Shown here: positions 39,188 through 45,070 of the stretch, one piece after another
Layout of the letters: each line of letters opens with the position of its first letter
Position numbering within the stretch: the first letter of the stretch is position 1
Assembly (NCBI RefSeq): GCF_009749525.1
Contig: NZ_WOAC01000019.1
Span: 1 to 64,000, forward strand
Direction: 5' to 3'
DNA length: 64,000 bases
Source of the DNA: Mesorhizobium xinjiangense
GTDB taxonomy: Bacteria; Pseudomonadota; Alphaproteobacteria; Rhizobiales; Rhizobiaceae
The notes under the pieces: generated by a model
Database searches by the model: none
Told to the model about the DNA's origin: nothing
What the model saw: only the letters and a program-made list of their open reading frames with translations
Made by a program: the position numbers and the translations under genes

Positions 39188-39961
39188 TCAGCCCTCCAGC
39201 TCGATCCAGACCGGCGCGTGATCGCTGGCGCCCGGACGGCCCCGCACCGGGCGGTCGACGCCGGCCGCCGTGAGCCGGCGGGCGGCCTTGCGGCTCACCA
39301 ACAGATGGTCGAGCCTCAGGCCGGCGTTGCGGGACCAGCGATTGCGCATGTAGTCCCAGAAGGTGAAGACGGTCTCGTCGGGGAAGGCGGTGCTGATGGC
39401 GTCGGTCCATCCCTGGTCGAGCAGCCGGCGGTAGGCGGCGCGGCTTTGCGGCTGCACGAGCGCGTTGCGATCGTAGGAGCGAGTTTCGTAGATATCGCGC
39501 GGCTCGGGAACGACGTTGTAGTCGCCCGCCAGCACGACCGGCACATCGGCGGCGACAAGCTCGGCGGCATGCGCGATCAGCCGCTCCATCCAGGCAAGCT
39601 TGAAGTCGAATTTCGGTCCCGGCTGCGGATTGCCGTTGGGCGCGTAAAGCGAGGCGATCAGCACCCCGCCAATGGCCGCCTCGATATAGCGCGCGTCGCG
39701 GTCGGCCGGATCGCCCGGCAGTTCGTCGCGGGTCAGGACGGGCTCGGCGCCGCGCGCCAGGATCGCCACGCCGTTCCATGCCGGTTGGCCGCGCCAGACC
39801 GCGCCATAGCCAGCTTCTTCGAGCGCCGTACGGGGAAATTTGCGCTGGTCGGCTTTCAGTTCCTGCAGGCAGACGACGTCCGGCTCGGCCTCGGCCAGCC
39901 AGTCGAGCAGGTTGTCCAGACGCCAGTTGATGCCGTTGATGTTGAAGGTGGCGACCTTCAC
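39188..39961 (-). CDS. xthA: Exodeoxyribonuclease III
   Basis: A 257-residue AP endonuclease/3'-exonuclease: MKVATFNINGINWRL, metal Glu34 in CLQELKADQ, VLAGDYNVVPEP, LDHLLVS, and terminal ASDHAPVWIEL. It repairs abasic sites and 3'-blocked ends. It is the last gene of the ligD-ku run, 13 bases after the alpha/beta hydrolase gene, so it is probably part of the end-joining operon and could clean ends before ligation. Confidence 0.95.
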   Translation of the reverse strand: MKVATFNINGINWRLDNLLDWLAEAEPDVVCLQELKADQRKFPRTALEEAGYGAVWRGQPAWNGVAILARGAEPVLTRDELPGDPADRDARYIEAAIGGVLIASLYAPNGNPQPGPKFDFKLAWMERLIAHAAELVAADVPVVLAGDYNVVPEPRDIYETRSYDRNALVQPQSRAAYRRLLDQGWTDAISTAFPDETVFTFWDYMRNRWSRNAGLRLDHLLVSRKAARRLTAAGVDRPVRGRPGASDHAPVWIELEG

Positions 39962-39974
39962 CGAACCGTCCGTT

Positions 39975-40616
39975 TCACGGCGCGATCCTCTCGGCGAAGG
40001 CCGCCACGGCCTGCGCCACCGTCTTCAGATGGTCGGCGGCAGAAAAGCCCGAGATCCGCTTGCGTGGCTTGAGGTCGTGATCGCCGTCCTCCAGCCACAG
40101 GAGCTCGATCCGCTCGGAAAGCGCGTAGCCCGCAACCTCCTCGCGCGTGCCGAATTCGTCGCGCGTGCCCTGGCAGATCAGCGTCGGCGTCTTCAGATTT
40201 TCGAGATGGGCGGTGCGCAACTGTGTCGGCTTGCCGGGCGGATGGAACGGATAGCCGAGACAGACGAGACCGGCGATGCGGCCCTGGTCATAGAGCTGGT
40301 CGGCGACCATGCTCGCCACGCGCCCGCCCATCGACTTGCCGCCGATCATCAGCGGGCCGGTCGCCGCCAGCGCCTCGACGGCGTCGAGATATTCATCCTT
40401 CAACCTTTCGGCGCGCGGCGGCGGCTTGCGGCCCTCGCCGTTGCGCCGGGCGGCCATGTAGGCGAATTCGAAACGGGCGGTTCGCAGGCCGGCCTCGGCC
40501 AATGCTGCAGAAGCCGCGTTCATGGAAATCGAATCCATCGGCGCGCCGGCCCCGTGCGCCAGCAGGATCGTGATGCGCGCATTGCCGGGCCCGTCGAAAA
40601 GGAAGCGGTCGTTCAT
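39975..40616 (-). CDS. Alpha/beta hydrolase (Tex30/KANL3 type)
   Basis: A 213-residue hydrolase: TILLAHGAGAPMDS oxyanion region, nucleophile Ser in IGGKSMGGR, FHPPGKP, LICQGTRDEFG (acid), DGDHDLKPRK (His). The layout matches the Tex30/KANL3-like dienelactone-hydrolase fold family. The ATG overlaps the stop of the BRCT/TPR gene (ATGA), so translation is coupled. A link to end joining is only contextual. Confidence 0.85.
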   Translation of the reverse strand: MNDRFLFDGPGNARITILLAHGAGAPMDSISMNAASAALAEAGLRTARFEFAYMAARRNGEGRKPPPRAERLKDEYLDAVEALAATGPLMIGGKSMGGRVASMVADQLYDQGRIAGLVCLGYPFHPPGKPTQLRTAHLENLKTPTLICQGTRDEFGTREEVAGYALSERIELLWLEDGDHDLKPRKRISGFSAADHLKTVAQAVAAFAERIAP

Positions 40617-41707
40617 CAGCCCGCATTCCTTCGGGCAAGCTGCAGGTCGGCATACTGGACGCCCCTGGCGGCATTGCGCGCCCAGGCCGAATTCGGGTCC
40701 AACTCGAGATAGCGCACCCACCAGCGCCGCGCTTCGGCGAGTTTGCCGGCATCGAACTCCAGCGTCGCCAGATTGTAGACGGCGTCGGCATAATCGGGAT
40801 CGAGTGTGACCGCCTTGCTGAGATAGCTGCGCGCCGCCTGTGTGTGGCCGCTCTGCCGGACGAGATCGGCCAGGTTGAACCAGGCCTCGACGAAGGCGGG
40901 ATCGAGCTTGAGCGTGATCAGGAAGCTGCGCCGCGCCTCGGCCATGTGGCCCATGGCGGCCAGGCAATTGGCGCGATTATAGGCGGCCACCGAATCCTTC
41001 GGATCGAGTGCCAGACATTTTTCGTAAAGGTCGGCCGCTTCCTCGAAACGCCCTTCGCTCTCCGCTTCTTCCGCCTCGTCGAACAGCGCGTCGGGCTCCC
41101 GCTCGTCGGGACGCTCGATCGGCAGCAGCATCTGTCCGTCGAGCTCGCTCAAGGCGTCGCCGCGCCGGGCATAGATCGCGTCGCGGCCCTCGGTCTCCAG
41201 CGCCAGGGCGGTGAGCGCGGTGACGGGTGCGGGCGCGCGATGGACGGAGCGCGCAATCGCGCCCCAACTCGCTCCGCCGGCGATCAGCCCGGCATATTTC
41301 TTGGCCAGGATCACGTCCCTGAACGAATAGGGCTCGCCGTCGTTCTCGAAGGCGTCGAAGAGCGACAGCAATTCGACGTCGCGCTCGGCAAGCCCCGACT
41401 GCTCGATCAGTGAGGCGCGCGTCAGGGCCGGTGCGGCCGGCGGGCGGCGCAGACCGAGCAGGCGCAGAAAACCGTTCTCGCTGAGGAGGCGCTTGCCGGC
41501 GCCGCGCTCCCGCTCGACGCGCTCTTCGATGGCCGTATCGCCGTCGCGCGCCAGAAGCCCGCGCCCGAGCACCACATGGGTGGTCTGGCGGGTGACGCCA
41601 TGCCTGAGATGGGCGCCGCGGTCTTCCACCTCGCGCGCGGCCAGACGCCGCGGGAAGGCGGTCAGCGCGCCGATCATGCCGAACGTTATGCCTGTGAGCT
41701 CTGTCAC
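40616..41707 (-). CDS. BRCT - HTH - TPR protein coupled to Ku
   Basis: A 363-residue three-part protein. Residues 1-86 look like a BRCT domain: GALTAFPRR, AREVEDRGAHLRHGV, TTHVVLGRGLL (the Tt-h-V-v strand) and KRLLSENGFLRLLGL (end helix). Residues 95-160 resemble a MerR-type helix-turn-helix (SFRDVILAKKYAGLIAGGAS). Residues 205-345 hold TPR repeats (AAYNRANCLAAMGHMAEARRSF, AWFNLADLVRQ, AVYNLATLEF). GTG at 41707 overlaps the ku stop as GTGA; no other start covers the BRCT. Translation is coupled to ku and to the next gene. BRCT and TPR are protein-binding modules, so a scaffold or regulator for end joining is a reasonable inference. Confidence 0.75.
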   Translation of the reverse strand: MTELTGITFGMIGALTAFPRRLAAREVEDRGAHLRHGVTRQTTHVVLGRGLLARDGDTAIEERVERERGAGKRLLSENGFLRLLGLRRPPAAPALTRASLIEQSGLAERDVELLSLFDAFENDGEPYSFRDVILAKKYAGLIAGGASWGAIARSVHRAPAPVTALTALALETEGRDAIYARRGDALSELDGQMLLPIERPDEREPDALFDEAEEAESEGRFEEAADLYEKCLALDPKDSVAAYNRANCLAAMGHMAEARRSFLITLKLDPAFVEAWFNLADLVRQSGHTQAARSYLSKAVTLDPDYADAVYNLATLEFDAGKLAEARRWWVRYLELDPNSAWARNAARGVQYADLQLARRNAG

Positions 41708-42594
41708 GCCTTTTTCCGGGCGGGCCTTTTCGCAGCGGATTTCGCCGATCCGCCGGCGCCGGCGGCCTTGGTCGCCGATTTGGCGGCCGGCTTTTCCCTG
41801 GCCTTGCTCTTTGCCGGCGGCTTCGATTGCGAGAGGCTCGCCTTCAGCGCATCCATGAGATTGATGACGTTGCCACGCTCCGGTGCCGCCGCAACAACCG
41901 GCTTGTGTCCCTTCAGCTTCTCCTTGATCATCTCCATCAGGGCGACCTCGTAGCGATCCTCGTAGGTGTTGGGATCGAACTGGGTCGTCTTCTGCTCGAT
42001 CAGCTTCTCGGCCAGTTCCAGCATTTCGGGATCGGGCTCGCCGACGGGAATATTGTCGAAATATTCGGCCGTGTTGCGCACCTCCCTGGGATTTCTCAAT
42101 GTGCACACGAACATGCCGGTTTCGCGCGGGGCGATGGTGATGACCCGCTCGCGGCTCGACAGAACCAGCCTGGCAATGGCGAGCTTGCCGGATTTGTGCA
42201 GGGCCTCGCGCAGGACGATGAAGGTTTCCTCCGCCATTGCGCCGTCGGGCGCCAGATAATACGGGGCGTCCTGGTAGATAACGTCCACCGAGCCCGCCTC
42301 GACGAAGGCCTCTATGTTCATCGTGTGGTTGGATTCGATCCTGACGCTGTCGAGATCAGGCTGATCGATGATGACGTATTGCTTGTCCTCGTATTCGTAG
42401 CCCTTGACGAGTTCGGAGCGCTCGACCAGCCCGAGTTCGGGGTCGACCGGCTTCATGTTGATCCGGTTGTGCGTGTCCTTGTGCAACTGGTTGAAGGTGA
42501 TGCGGTCACGGGTGCTGGTGGCGGGATAAAGCCGCACCGGACAACTCACCAGGCTCAGTTTCAGATAGCCTTTCCAACTCGCTCTTGGCGCCAT
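41704..42594 (-). CDS. ku: Ku DNA-end-binding protein
   Basis: A 296-residue bacterial Ku: MAPRASWKGYLKLSLVSCPVRLYPA start, VKGYEYEDKQYVII, beta-barrel core to about residue 215, then a tail of Lys/Ala/Pro repeats (AKSKAREKPAAKSATK) as in rhizobial Ku proteins. It homodimerises on double-strand ends and recruits LigD. It lies 22 bases after ligD and overlaps the BRCT/TPR gene by 4 bases. Confidence 0.96.
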   Translation of the reverse strand: MAPRASWKGYLKLSLVSCPVRLYPATSTRDRITFNQLHKDTHNRINMKPVDPELGLVERSELVKGYEYEDKQYVIIDQPDLDSVRIESNHTMNIEAFVEAGSVDVIYQDAPYYLAPDGAMAEETFIVLREALHKSGKLAIARLVLSSRERVITIAPRETGMFVCTLRNPREVRNTAEYFDNIPVGEPDPEMLELAEKLIEQKTTQFDPNTYEDRYEVALMEMIKEKLKGHKPVVAAAPERGNVINLMDALKASLSQSKPPAKSKAREKPAAKSATKAAGAGGSAKSAAKRPARKKA

Positions 42595-42616
42595 GCCTGC
42601 CTCCTACGCAACGCAG

Positions 42617-45070
42617 CTACTTCTCCACAGTCGGCAAGTCCCGGGCGGCCTCTGCGATCTCGGCCCATGGATCACCAGACGTCGATATCAGCCCCGGAAG
42701 CGAAGAATAGTTCAAATCCTCCGGGGCGTCGATGGCCTCCAGATCCGCCCAGCCGAGCGGTGTCGAGGCCGGCAGGTTGGGCCGGGCGCGCAGCGAATAG
42801 GGCGCGACGGCGGTGGCACCGCGCACGTTGCGGTGGAAATCGATGAAGATGCGACCCTTGCGGTTTTGCTCGCCCATGGTGGTGGTGAAAGTGTCAGGCG
42901 CCGTCCTGGCGATCGCCGCGGCGATCTCTCCGGTGCGTGCGTGCACCTTTTTCCAGTCGAGCTTCGGGCGGACCGGCACAGTGAGGTGCAAACCCTTGCC
43001 GCCGGAGGTCTTGACGAAGGGCACGAGCTTCATCGCCTCCAATTCGCCGCGAATATGCTGCGCGGCCTCGACGATATCGCGCCATTCGATGCCTTCGCCG
43101 GGATCGAGGTCGAAGACGATGCGATCAGGCCTTTCGAGCCGTTTGGCGGTCGTGCCCCAGGCATGGAATTCCACCACCCCGAACTGGGCCAGCGCCAGAT
43201 AGCCCTTGACGTCTTCGACGACGAGATAGGTCGTCGTCTCGCCCTCCGAATCGGTCCTTTCGAAGGTCGCAATCGAATCCGGCATGCCGGAAAAGGCATG
43301 GCGCTGGAAGAAGCAGTCCTGCCGCTTGCCCGTCGGACAGCGCAGGAAAGAGACCGGCCGGCCCAGGATATGCGGCAGCATGAAGTCGCCCATGCTTGCA
43401 TAATAGACCGCGACGTCGAGCTTGGTCGGGCCGGATTTGGTGAACAGGCGGCGGGTCGGATTGGTGACCCAGACCGAGGCAAGGTCGGTGTCGGAGACGA
43501 GACGCTTGCGCTCGGGCGCGTCGGAGGCCGATAGCGCGGCGTCCCTCAGTTCCTTGAAGACGGCGTGACGCAGCATGTTGTCGGCCGTGCGGTTGGCGAA
43601 ATGGATGTGGGCGGAAAGGACGGGCCGCACCCAATGAATGTCCTTGGGCGCGCCGTCGAGCCTGGCCGCGTCGTCCTTGAGCGGTTCCAGGCGTTCCAGC
43701 AGTCCTTTCAGCGTCGGCGCGTCGAAGCCGGTGCCCACCTTGCCGCGATAGTGCAGTTCTGCGTCGTGCCATTCGGCCAGTGCCAGCGCCGCCAGGCCTT
43801 CGGCGGCTTCGGACGTCGTATAGCCGGCGATGACGAAATCGCCCGCCTGCAGCGCCTTGGACTTGAGCCACGACTTGGATCGCCCCTCGTCATAGGGCGC
43901 CGACAGCTTCTTGGAGACGACGCCTTCGAGGCCGAGCTCGGTGGCGCGCTCGTAGAAAGCGGCGCCGTCGCCGACGACATGACCGCTCACCTGGATCGCG
44001 GATCGTGGATCGGCATGGCCGGCAAGCAGCCTTTCCAGCATCTCCTTGCGTTTGGACAGGGCAACCTTGCGCAGGTCCCAGCCATTCAGATGGACGAGAT
44101 CGAAGGCATAGAAGACGAGCTGGTTGCCGGGTCCATCGGCAAGAGCTTCCTGAAGGGCCGAGAAGCGGCTGACGCCGTCGCCATCGAGAACGACGATCTC
44201 GCCGTCGATCACCGCCTGCTCGCAGGGCAATTGCCTGAAGGCGTGGGAAAGATCGCCGTAGCGCTTCGTCCAGTCGAGGCCGCTGCGGGTGATCAGCCTG
44301 GCCTCGCCGTCTTCGACGAAGGCCAATGTGCGATAGCCGTCGAACTTGATCTCGTGCAGCCAGTCCTTGCCTTTCGGCGGCTTGTCCGCTGCGGTGGCGA
44401 GCTGCGGCTTGAGGCGGTGCGGCATCGCGGATTTCCCGGCGCCTTTCAACCGGCCCGGCGCGAGCCTTCTTGGTCGAGGCGCCGGCTGCCCGACGTGCCC
44501 ATCGTTGTCCGCCATGTCCTCGATCGTGCGTCGACTCTTCACGCTTTCGGGGCGCTCGGCGAGAATGTCCAGGTCGGGATCGGCCGCCTGATCGCGCTCC
44601 TTAATGAGCAGCCAGTTGCGCTTGGTCTCGCCCTCCCTGGGCTTCAGCCGTGTCAGCATCCAGCCGCCATTGAGCTTCTCGCTCGCCAGGCGGAATTTCA
44701 GCGCGCCGGCTTTGAGGCCCTTCGTCGCGTCGTCCATCGGCGCCCAGACACCGCTGTCCCAGACGATCATCGGCCCGCCGCCATATTCGCCATCGGGGAT
44801 CACGCCCTCGAAGTCGATATAGTCGAGCGGATGGTCCTCGGTCTCGACCGCCAGCCGCCTGGTCTCGGGATCGAGCGACGGGCCTTTCGGAACCGCCCAG
44901 CTCTTCAGCAGGCCGCCGACCTGCAGCCGCAGATCGTAATGATCGGCCGTGGCGGCGTGCTTGTGCACGACGAAGCGGTTTCCGGAATCGCCGCTGGCAT
45001 GGCCGTGCGGCTCCGTGGTGCGGGAAAAGTCCCGCTTTTTGTGGTAGTCCTTGAGCTTCGGACCGTTCAT
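42617..45070 (-). CDS. ligD: ATP-dependent DNA ligase LigD
   Basis: An 817-residue three-domain end-joining enzyme in the order phosphoesterase (about 33-140, FVVHKHAATADHYDLRL), ligase (about 215-520; nucleotidyl Lys242 in EIKFDGYR), polymerase (about 535-805; metal Asp654/Asp656 in FDLDPGEG). The order PE-LIG-POL matches the Pseudomonas/rhizobial type. It heads the run ligD-ku-BRCT/TPR-hydrolase-xthA. GGAC-rich leader; no dedicated regulator is visible. Confidence 0.96.
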   Translation of the reverse strand: MNGPKLKDYHKKRDFSRTTEPHGHASGDSGNRFVVHKHAATADHYDLRLQVGGLLKSWAVPKGPSLDPETRRLAVETEDHPLDYIDFEGVIPDGEYGGGPMIVWDSGVWAPMDDATKGLKAGALKFRLASEKLNGGWMLTRLKPREGETKRNWLLIKERDQAADPDLDILAERPESVKSRRTIEDMADNDGHVGQPAPRPRRLAPGRLKGAGKSAMPHRLKPQLATAADKPPKGKDWLHEIKFDGYRTLAFVEDGEARLITRSGLDWTKRYGDLSHAFRQLPCEQAVIDGEIVVLDGDGVSRFSALQEALADGPGNQLVFYAFDLVHLNGWDLRKVALSKRKEMLERLLAGHADPRSAIQVSGHVVGDGAAFYERATELGLEGVVSKKLSAPYDEGRSKSWLKSKALQAGDFVIAGYTTSEAAEGLAALALAEWHDAELHYRGKVGTGFDAPTLKGLLERLEPLKDDAARLDGAPKDIHWVRPVLSAHIHFANRTADNMLRHAVFKELRDAALSASDAPERKRLVSDTDLASVWVTNPTRRLFTKSGPTKLDVAVYYASMGDFMLPHILGRPVSFLRCPTGKRQDCFFQRHAFSGMPDSIATFERTDSEGETTTYLVVEDVKGYLALAQFGVVEFHAWGTTAKRLERPDRIVFDLDPGEGIEWRDIVEAAQHIRGELEAMKLVPFVKTSGGKGLHLTVPVRPKLDWKKVHARTGEIAAAIARTAPDTFTTTMGEQNRKGRIFIDFHRNVRGATAVAPYSLRARPNLPASTPLGWADLEAIDAPEDLNYSSLPGLISTSGDPWAEIAEAARDLPTVEK

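Follow-up and report, generated by a model that had tools for sequence, protein, structure and literature searches.

A BRCT-MerR-TPR protein encoded in overlap with ku in Mesorhizobium xinjiangense, a predicted adaptor in one branch of bacterial non-homologous end joining

The two-protein system of Ku and LigD has been described as the minimal set for bacterial non-homologous end joining (NHEJ) (PMC5124664). A 64,000-nucleotide stretch of Mesorhizobium xinjiangense DNA (assembly GCF_009749525.1, contig NZ_WOAC01000019.1, positions 1 to 64,000; hereafter the window) resembles that system in carrying an intact ku and a three-domain ligD in one array, but differs from it in a third gene that overlaps ku. 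The protein, here called X, combines a BRCT domain, a MerR-like winged helix-turn-helix and an array of tetratricopeptide repeats (TPR). The overlap of the two genes, their co-inheritance within one Ku lineage and the pairing of BRCT with TPR suggest that X serves as an adaptor together with Ku at DNA ends. It is probably a third protein devoted to one branch of bacterial NHEJ, with a predicted place on DNA-bound Ku.

An earlier note on this DNA had claimed that X is tightly coupled to ku, and the coupling proved to be conserved. A scan of named genomes by profile found 153 relatives, and the 80 best of them, from Mesorhizobium, Sinorhizobium/Ensifer, Chelativorans, Aminobacter, Devosia and other genera, were retained. 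In all 80, ku lies directly upstream of X on the same strand, and in 77 X overlaps the ku stop (55 by 4 nt, 22 by 1 nt), so the overlap is more than the chance of one sequence; the conserved genomic link to ku expected of an NHEJ component is present. The same 80 loci hold LigD in 75 cases, the alpha/beta hydrolase that follows X in 77 and xthA in 76, and wherever one of these is missing the sequence ends nearby. The hydrolase frequently starts 100-200 bases or more past X in these homologous loci. A plasmid search found X in 87 records (Sinorhizobium 78, Ensifer 8, Pararhizobium 1), including pSymB of S. meliloti 1021, and the gene directly after Ku in S. meliloti RCAM1115 is annotated as a tetratricopeptide repeat protein.

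All five open reading frames of the array ligD-ku-X-hydrolase-xthA that the earlier note had described are present in the window, head to tail on the minus strand, and the ku among them is the sole Ku match of the whole genome. The GTGA overlap between the ku stop and the GTG of X was likewise found as described, whereas the ATGA overlap proposed for X and the hydrolase must be amended to a single shared nucleotide within TGATG (40614-40618). The features are the following.

41704..42594, minus strand: ku (TIGR02772, 8.6e-84), starting 22 nt past the ligD stop.
40616..41707, minus strand: X, a BRCT - MerR-like winged helix-turn-helix - TPR protein of 363 aa with a GTG start.
41704..41707, minus strand: GTGA overlap of the ku TGA and the X GTG, 4 nt, read from the sequence.
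41444..41707, minus strand: BRCT domain of X, residues 1-88 (AlphaFold order, fold matches and family profile).
41228..41425, minus strand: MerR-like winged helix-turn-helix of X, residues 95-160 (VIA-align and a combined alignment with Burkholderiales-type proteins).
40670..41095, minus strand: TPR array of X, residues 205-346 (Pfam, AlphaFold model and conservation).
41806..41823, minus strand: Ku tail motif KPPAKS, a candidate docking peptide, Ku residues 258-263, directly past NVINLMDALK.
42617..45070, minus strand: ligD, with 3'-phosphoesterase, ligase and polymerase domains (Pfam and NCBIfam; NHEJ_ligase_prk, 2.4e-212).
39975..40616, minus strand: alpha/beta hydrolase (Abhydrolase_11, 1.9e-73).
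39188..39961, minus strand: xthA, exodeoxyribonuclease III (XthA, 1.1e-65), with a GTG start, after a 13-nt gap.

The distribution of X was also surveyed from the side of Ku, within Pseudomonadota. A sample of 150 genomes of the order contained 49 with Ku and 6 with X, every X beside a Ku. In the class, Ku is present in 55 of 385 genomes and the X profile matched in 12, 11 of these matches adjoining ku and the twelfth being an exonuclease-type open reading frame with a C-terminal BRCT. This class search scored at most eight candidates per genome and missed members in G163, G153 and G219; once the DNA flanking the Ku genes was scanned, 14 of the 55 genomes proved to have X adjoining ku, a count that includes two incomplete genes, interrupted in G371 and at a contig end in G219. 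The G371 gene (L253/L334) has an N-terminal open reading frame of 228 aa with the TPR part as a separate match, through either real decay or an assembly error.

In the pooled Ku-first set, X stands behind 19 of 158 distinct Ku genes, its downstream position being found by tblastn in 18 and, for L247 at a contig end, by profile only. The clade counts given here come from a quick tree of 152 of these Ku proteins, six fragments under 170 residues and without X having been omitted; another Ku tree mixed in loci found through X. Fourteen of the 19 X-linked Ku fall in one clade with a Shimodaira-Hasegawa-like approximate likelihood ratio test (SH-aLRT) value of 100, and the remaining five lie outside it. 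The X label requires 5 changes on the tree against 18.2 when shuffled, and none of 500 shuffles was as low. Absence of X next to ku in most relatives, which the earlier note had regarded as telling against its proposal, is what the surveys found when every Ku-bearing relative is counted, X being present in 6 of the 49 genomes with Ku in the order sample and in 14 of the 55 in the class sample; the clade of 14 answers this in part, as it indicates that X tracks a Ku lineage and not species at large. Where a genome has more than one Ku gene, the further copies inspected are without X (e.g. G153, G069 and G136). LigD changes place among the 19 loci, with 13 upstream, 2 downstream and 2 divergent cases and 2 in which the locus sequence does not show it; the hydrolase occurs in 6 and xthA in 5, both beside X in near relatives only. 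As LigD shifts position and the other two genes are local, ku followed by X is the sole constant arrangement.

Proteins with the same core and no BRCT domain occur behind Ku in Burkholderiales. Genome G746 carries two such MerR-TPR genes directly behind Ku and a third Ku (L291) without a partner; its three Ku genes are on contigs C91, C144 and C114. A plasmid search with the MerR segment gave 33 records from Cupriavidus, Paraburkholderia, Caballeronia, Variovorax and Burkholderia, and each of the 12 loci opened, which were picked for spread and include two from one strain, has an annotated Ku gene immediately upstream in the same orientation. Of 56 genomes in the class of G746, 8 have Ku and 3 have a MerR-TPR gene behind a Ku, and the Ku linked to MerR-TPR form one clade (SH-aLRT 99) on the tree that mixed in loci found through X. 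Locus L292 was classed as a BRCT-less MerR-TPR on the basis that its protein, some 300 residues long, starts close to the MerR core. These proteins, mostly annotated as tetratricopeptide repeat proteins, share with X the place behind ku and a MerR-hairpin-TPR core, but they lack the BRCT and have a basic MerR part, the first 75 residues being basic in 14 of them (+6 to +13). The basic MerR part in proteins without BRCT, set against the acidic recognition segment in those with it, suggests that the BRCT domain has taken over a DNA contact formerly made by the winged helix.

The BRCT domain that the earlier note had placed at residues 1-90 was borne out by a family profile and by fold, single-sequence Pfam matching being insufficient. 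BRCT is not among the best 25 of 30 Pfam matches of full-length window X; its N-terminal 200 residues gave Pfam BRCT at E 0.11 and 13.1 bits, below the cut-off of 21.3, and window X alone gave BRCT among six N-terminal sequences scanned. Twelve more BRCT-form homologues yielded Pfam BRCT in five cases (E 0.0014, 0.0023, 0.005, 0.0063 and 0.059), the other seven having no BRCT among the Pfam matches listed; in four distant members the values were 0.0014-0.0063, all under the cut-off. DUF3851, found in two of the six N-terminal sequences (best E 0.017), was absent among the matches listed in later scans.

AlphaFold modelled full-length X from 25 homologues with a mean predicted local distance difference test (pLDDT) score of 90.8 and a predicted template modelling (pTM) score of 0.54, and residues 1-200 in a second model from 26 sequences with a mean pLDDT of 83.3. 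The succession of strands (E) and helices (H), E8-12 H20-29 E33-36 E44-47 H51-54/H57-69 E73-75 H77-83, is repeated in the second model and places the strand-helix-strand-strand-helix-strand-helix order of a BRCT, some 85 residues long, at residues 8-83. With the second model, the best Foldseek matches in PDB are the BRCT domains of RFC1 (9.3e-5, 3.5e-4 and 4.4e-4), below which stand Dbf4, LigA (9a6z, an integrative model, 3.6e-3) and PARP1 BRCT among others; the full model was uninformative on this point, TPR proteins making up its best 50 rows. RFC1 and LigA also led in VIA-align (Z 6.5 to 6.0, 77-80 residues, 2.7-3.5 Å), where the matches listed are mostly BRCT chains and other families may be represented as well.

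A full-length X profile run against the phylum was drowned in unrelated TPR proteins, and a profile of residues 1-200 built from 18 members was used instead. It matched at E <=0.001 in 368 of 398 Pseudomonadota genomes, 10 of which contain members; among the matches listed, those of full length come from 10 of the 398 genomes and all belong to the window's family, the remainder being partial. Among non-member loci, the 20 with the best scores were examined; in each, the end of a long open reading frame matches the BRCT part of the profile, with short additional matching stretches elsewhere in four, and all three loci scanned are LigA. At the level of sequence profiles, then, the N-terminus of X shares detectable homology with the terminal BRCT of LigA, which is evidence separate from the fold match, and the assignment of residues 1-88 as a BRCT domain holds on profile and predicted structure taken together. 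This part of X is basic, with a net charge of +4 to +12 in the BRCT-bearing form.

The helix-turn-helix that the earlier note had seen in the middle of X is a MerR-like winged helix at residues 95-160, as indicated by VIA-align and homologue profiles. Residues 91-200 align with CbpM (Z 5.2, 4.2 Å, 79 residues) and residues 92-195 with TnrA (Z 5.1, 4.0 Å, 74 residues). MerR_1 and HTH_17 are not among the Pfam matches listed for window X, and the L126 homologue gave MerR_1 at E 0.01, under the cut-off; the homologous segment passes the MerR_1 cut-off in three of four Burkholderiales-type proteins scanned, and one of these proteins is annotated as a MerR family regulator. Regulators often reside in the operon they control, and X might accordingly be a MerR-type transcription regulator of the end-joining operon, with BRCT and TPR as sensor parts. 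Short inverted repeats are also more numerous than in shuffled sequence, at 18 in 22 ligD upstream regions against a shuffled mean of 7.2 (highest 21) and 8 in 15 Burkholderiales-type ku upstream regions against 3.0 (highest 9). This explanation is weakened by the recognition segment (residues 106-120), which is acidic in 18 of 18 BRCT-bearing members (net -1 to -3) within a domain of net charge -4 to +2. Moreover, an inverted-repeat arm is common to at most two of the 22 ligD or one of the 15 ku upstream regions in a weak scan that took arms of 7 without mismatches, and the position of X is kept relative to ku and not to the operon start. A regulatory role is judged unlikely.

Pfam and the AlphaFold model agree on the TPR array that had been proposed for the C-terminus, at residues 205-346. 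TPR_2 matches four stretches (1.6e-24), helical pairs extend over residues 205-336 of the model and the 34-residue motif is repeated in tandem; PADLOC gave nothing beyond weak matches to the TPR or helix-turn-helix parts. Asn244, Asn278 and Asn312 do not vary among 25 sequences, and a wider set of 18 retains them in 18, 17 and 16 members, respectively. A similar asparagine ladder lies in the peptide-binding TPRs of O-GlcNAc transferase.

A candidate peptide for such a groove is found in the tail of Ku. A minimal C-terminal Ku segment is described as recruiting LigD (PMC5124664, PMC12658125) and as being followed by a basic tail (PMC5124664); NLMDALK would belong to the recruiting segment. Twelve of the 14 Ku in the X clade have the motif KPPA[KRP][SG], as against 0 of 139 partnerless Ku, 2 of which have KPPA alone, and shuffled tails contain it 0.02 times on average and at most once. 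As a sequence pattern it may be a docking site, a lead rather than proof. The named homologous Ku proteins have PPAKS in 71 of 80 cases and KPPA in 8 more.

These features bear also on a second alternative, by which X would be a dedicated chaperone, stabiliser or brake of Ku outside the repair complex, for example binding the free Ku tail and thereby keeping Ku off intact DNA. An asparagine-ladder TPR resembles peptide-binding TPRs, the start-stop overlap with ku would fit such a partner, and a MerR-like fold is found in CbpM bound to the CbpA J-domain; a chaperone role nevertheless leaves the fused BRCT of DNA-repair type unexplained and draws the function from fold alone, and it is judged improbable. 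Far less credible is a passenger that sits beside ku through inheritance of the whole operon and functions elsewhere, as the hydrolase and xthA are such neighbours in near relatives, since X stays directly behind ku even where identity to the window protein falls to 24-37%, distances at which hydrolase and xthA are no longer seen and LigD has moved, and the 12 class matches, from a search that was not exhaustive, include no X gene located apart from ku.

If X acts as an adaptor once Ku is on DNA, its basic BRCT would contact the DNA end, or else a ligase bound at that end, and the groove of the TPR array, with the three-asparagine ladder, would hold a peptide in extended form, the basic tail of Ku being the likeliest. 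The predicted target is the KPPA[KRP][SG] region near the presumed LigD-recruiting segment, and X may tune end bridging, hand-over to LigD or the entry of processing enzymes such as XthA. A more specific and distinctly more tentative proposal makes an entire branch of bacterial NHEJ a three-protein system, Ku - LigD - X, with X derived from a Ku-coupled MerR-TPR ancestor common to Beta- and Alphaproteobacteria; under it, a ligase-type BRCT gained in Alphaproteobacteria took over DNA contact, the winged helix turned acidic and the TPR came to read KPPA[KRP][SG]. If true, this system would be a bacterial analogue of eukaryotic end-joining scaffolds. X could also account for the way in which the several Ku proteins of rhizobia differ in function and, with a candidate docking peptide in the tail of Ku, it is a candidate accessory factor open to immediate testing. 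It occurs on pSymB of the much-used Sinorhizobium meliloti, and the annotated strains seen name it only as a tetratricopeptide repeat protein.

Several observations weigh against an adaptor of this kind. Among the matches listed, no BRCT-bearing member reaches the Pfam BRCT cut-off, and the VIA-align Z values for BRCT are middling by the tool's own scale. Phosphate-binding pockets, which some BRCTs have, carry Ser/Thr at the end of strand 1. In X this position is Ile, Val or Leu in 17 of 18 members and Thr in one, lacking the Ser/Thr of phosphopeptide binding, and the Gly-Ser-Lys stretch of the LigA BRCT is absent, so DNA-end binding by the X BRCT is not assured. Of the 55 genomes with Ku in the class sample, 41 have it without X, and 5 of 8 Ku-bearing genomes in the class of G746 have Ku without a MerR-TPR partner, which makes the partner unnecessary for end joining in general. 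Given that the class search missed three members beside ku, members away from ku may exist. The clade of 14 is the largest with X at every Ku, its freedom from partnerless members thus being true by choice; the telling figure is that 14 of 19 fall in it, and near-copies among rhizobia inflate that figure. The tail pattern was picked after inspecting tails and is found in none of the five partner-bearing Ku outside the clade; with the motif confined to one clade, shared descent could account for it.

Comparison with known BRCT proteins moves X away from the analogy of the earlier note, which had likened it to XRCC4/Lig4. The fold of the X BRCT is like that of the LigA C-terminal BRCT and the RFC1 (p140) BRCT, with detectable sequence homology to LigA in addition; it differs from LigA in being N-terminal on a MerR-TPR protein and in having an insert where the GSK..KA segment is absent. 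XRCC1 and DNA ligase III share the BRCT fold with X, their chains standing lower in the structure-match list, as do chains of end-joining complexes whose residue numbers would fit ligase IV. The BRCTs of eukaryotic end joining are weaker matches than RFC1 and LigA, X has one BRCT and not a tandem, and an XRCC4-like coiled coil is absent from its AlphaFold model. The closest analogy is not XRCC4/Lig4, since the X BRCT is most similar to the single BRCT of the RFC1/LigA type. The MerR-family winged helix-turn-helix and CbpM align with residues 91-200, X differing from them in its acidic recognition segment and in the TPRs that follow. The full-text searches made listed, by title and abstract, no paper on a Ku-linked BRCT-MerR-TPR protein, and an earlier remark on the S. 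meliloti gene may exist; the main text of an NHEJ survey (PMC7719229) has no mention of BRCT, TPR or tetratricopeptide. A different neighbour, PolX, is described near LigD in Alphaproteobacteria (PMC9226535).

Three smaller observations concern the surroundings of these genes. The twelfth match of the class search, in G418 (L254 3057-3944, minus strand), was rejected as a member, being by eye an exonuclease-type open reading frame with a C-terminal BRCT and without a Ku found beside it. On plasmid 2 of Variovorax sp. WDL1, a gene of the endonuclease/exonuclease/phosphatase family (L281 3346-4305, minus strand) adjoins the Ku - MerR-TPR pair in convergent orientation and recalls the xthA of the window. 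Finally, eight loci, mostly from Sinorhizobium/Ensifer (L041, L042, L044, L047, L048, L052, L057 and L086), have in common, by eye, ATATTGC(A/G)G and C(A/T)TAGC boxes upstream of ligD; the second box ends about 5-12 bases before the ligD ATG, a promoter-like arrangement that suggests a nearly leaderless message.

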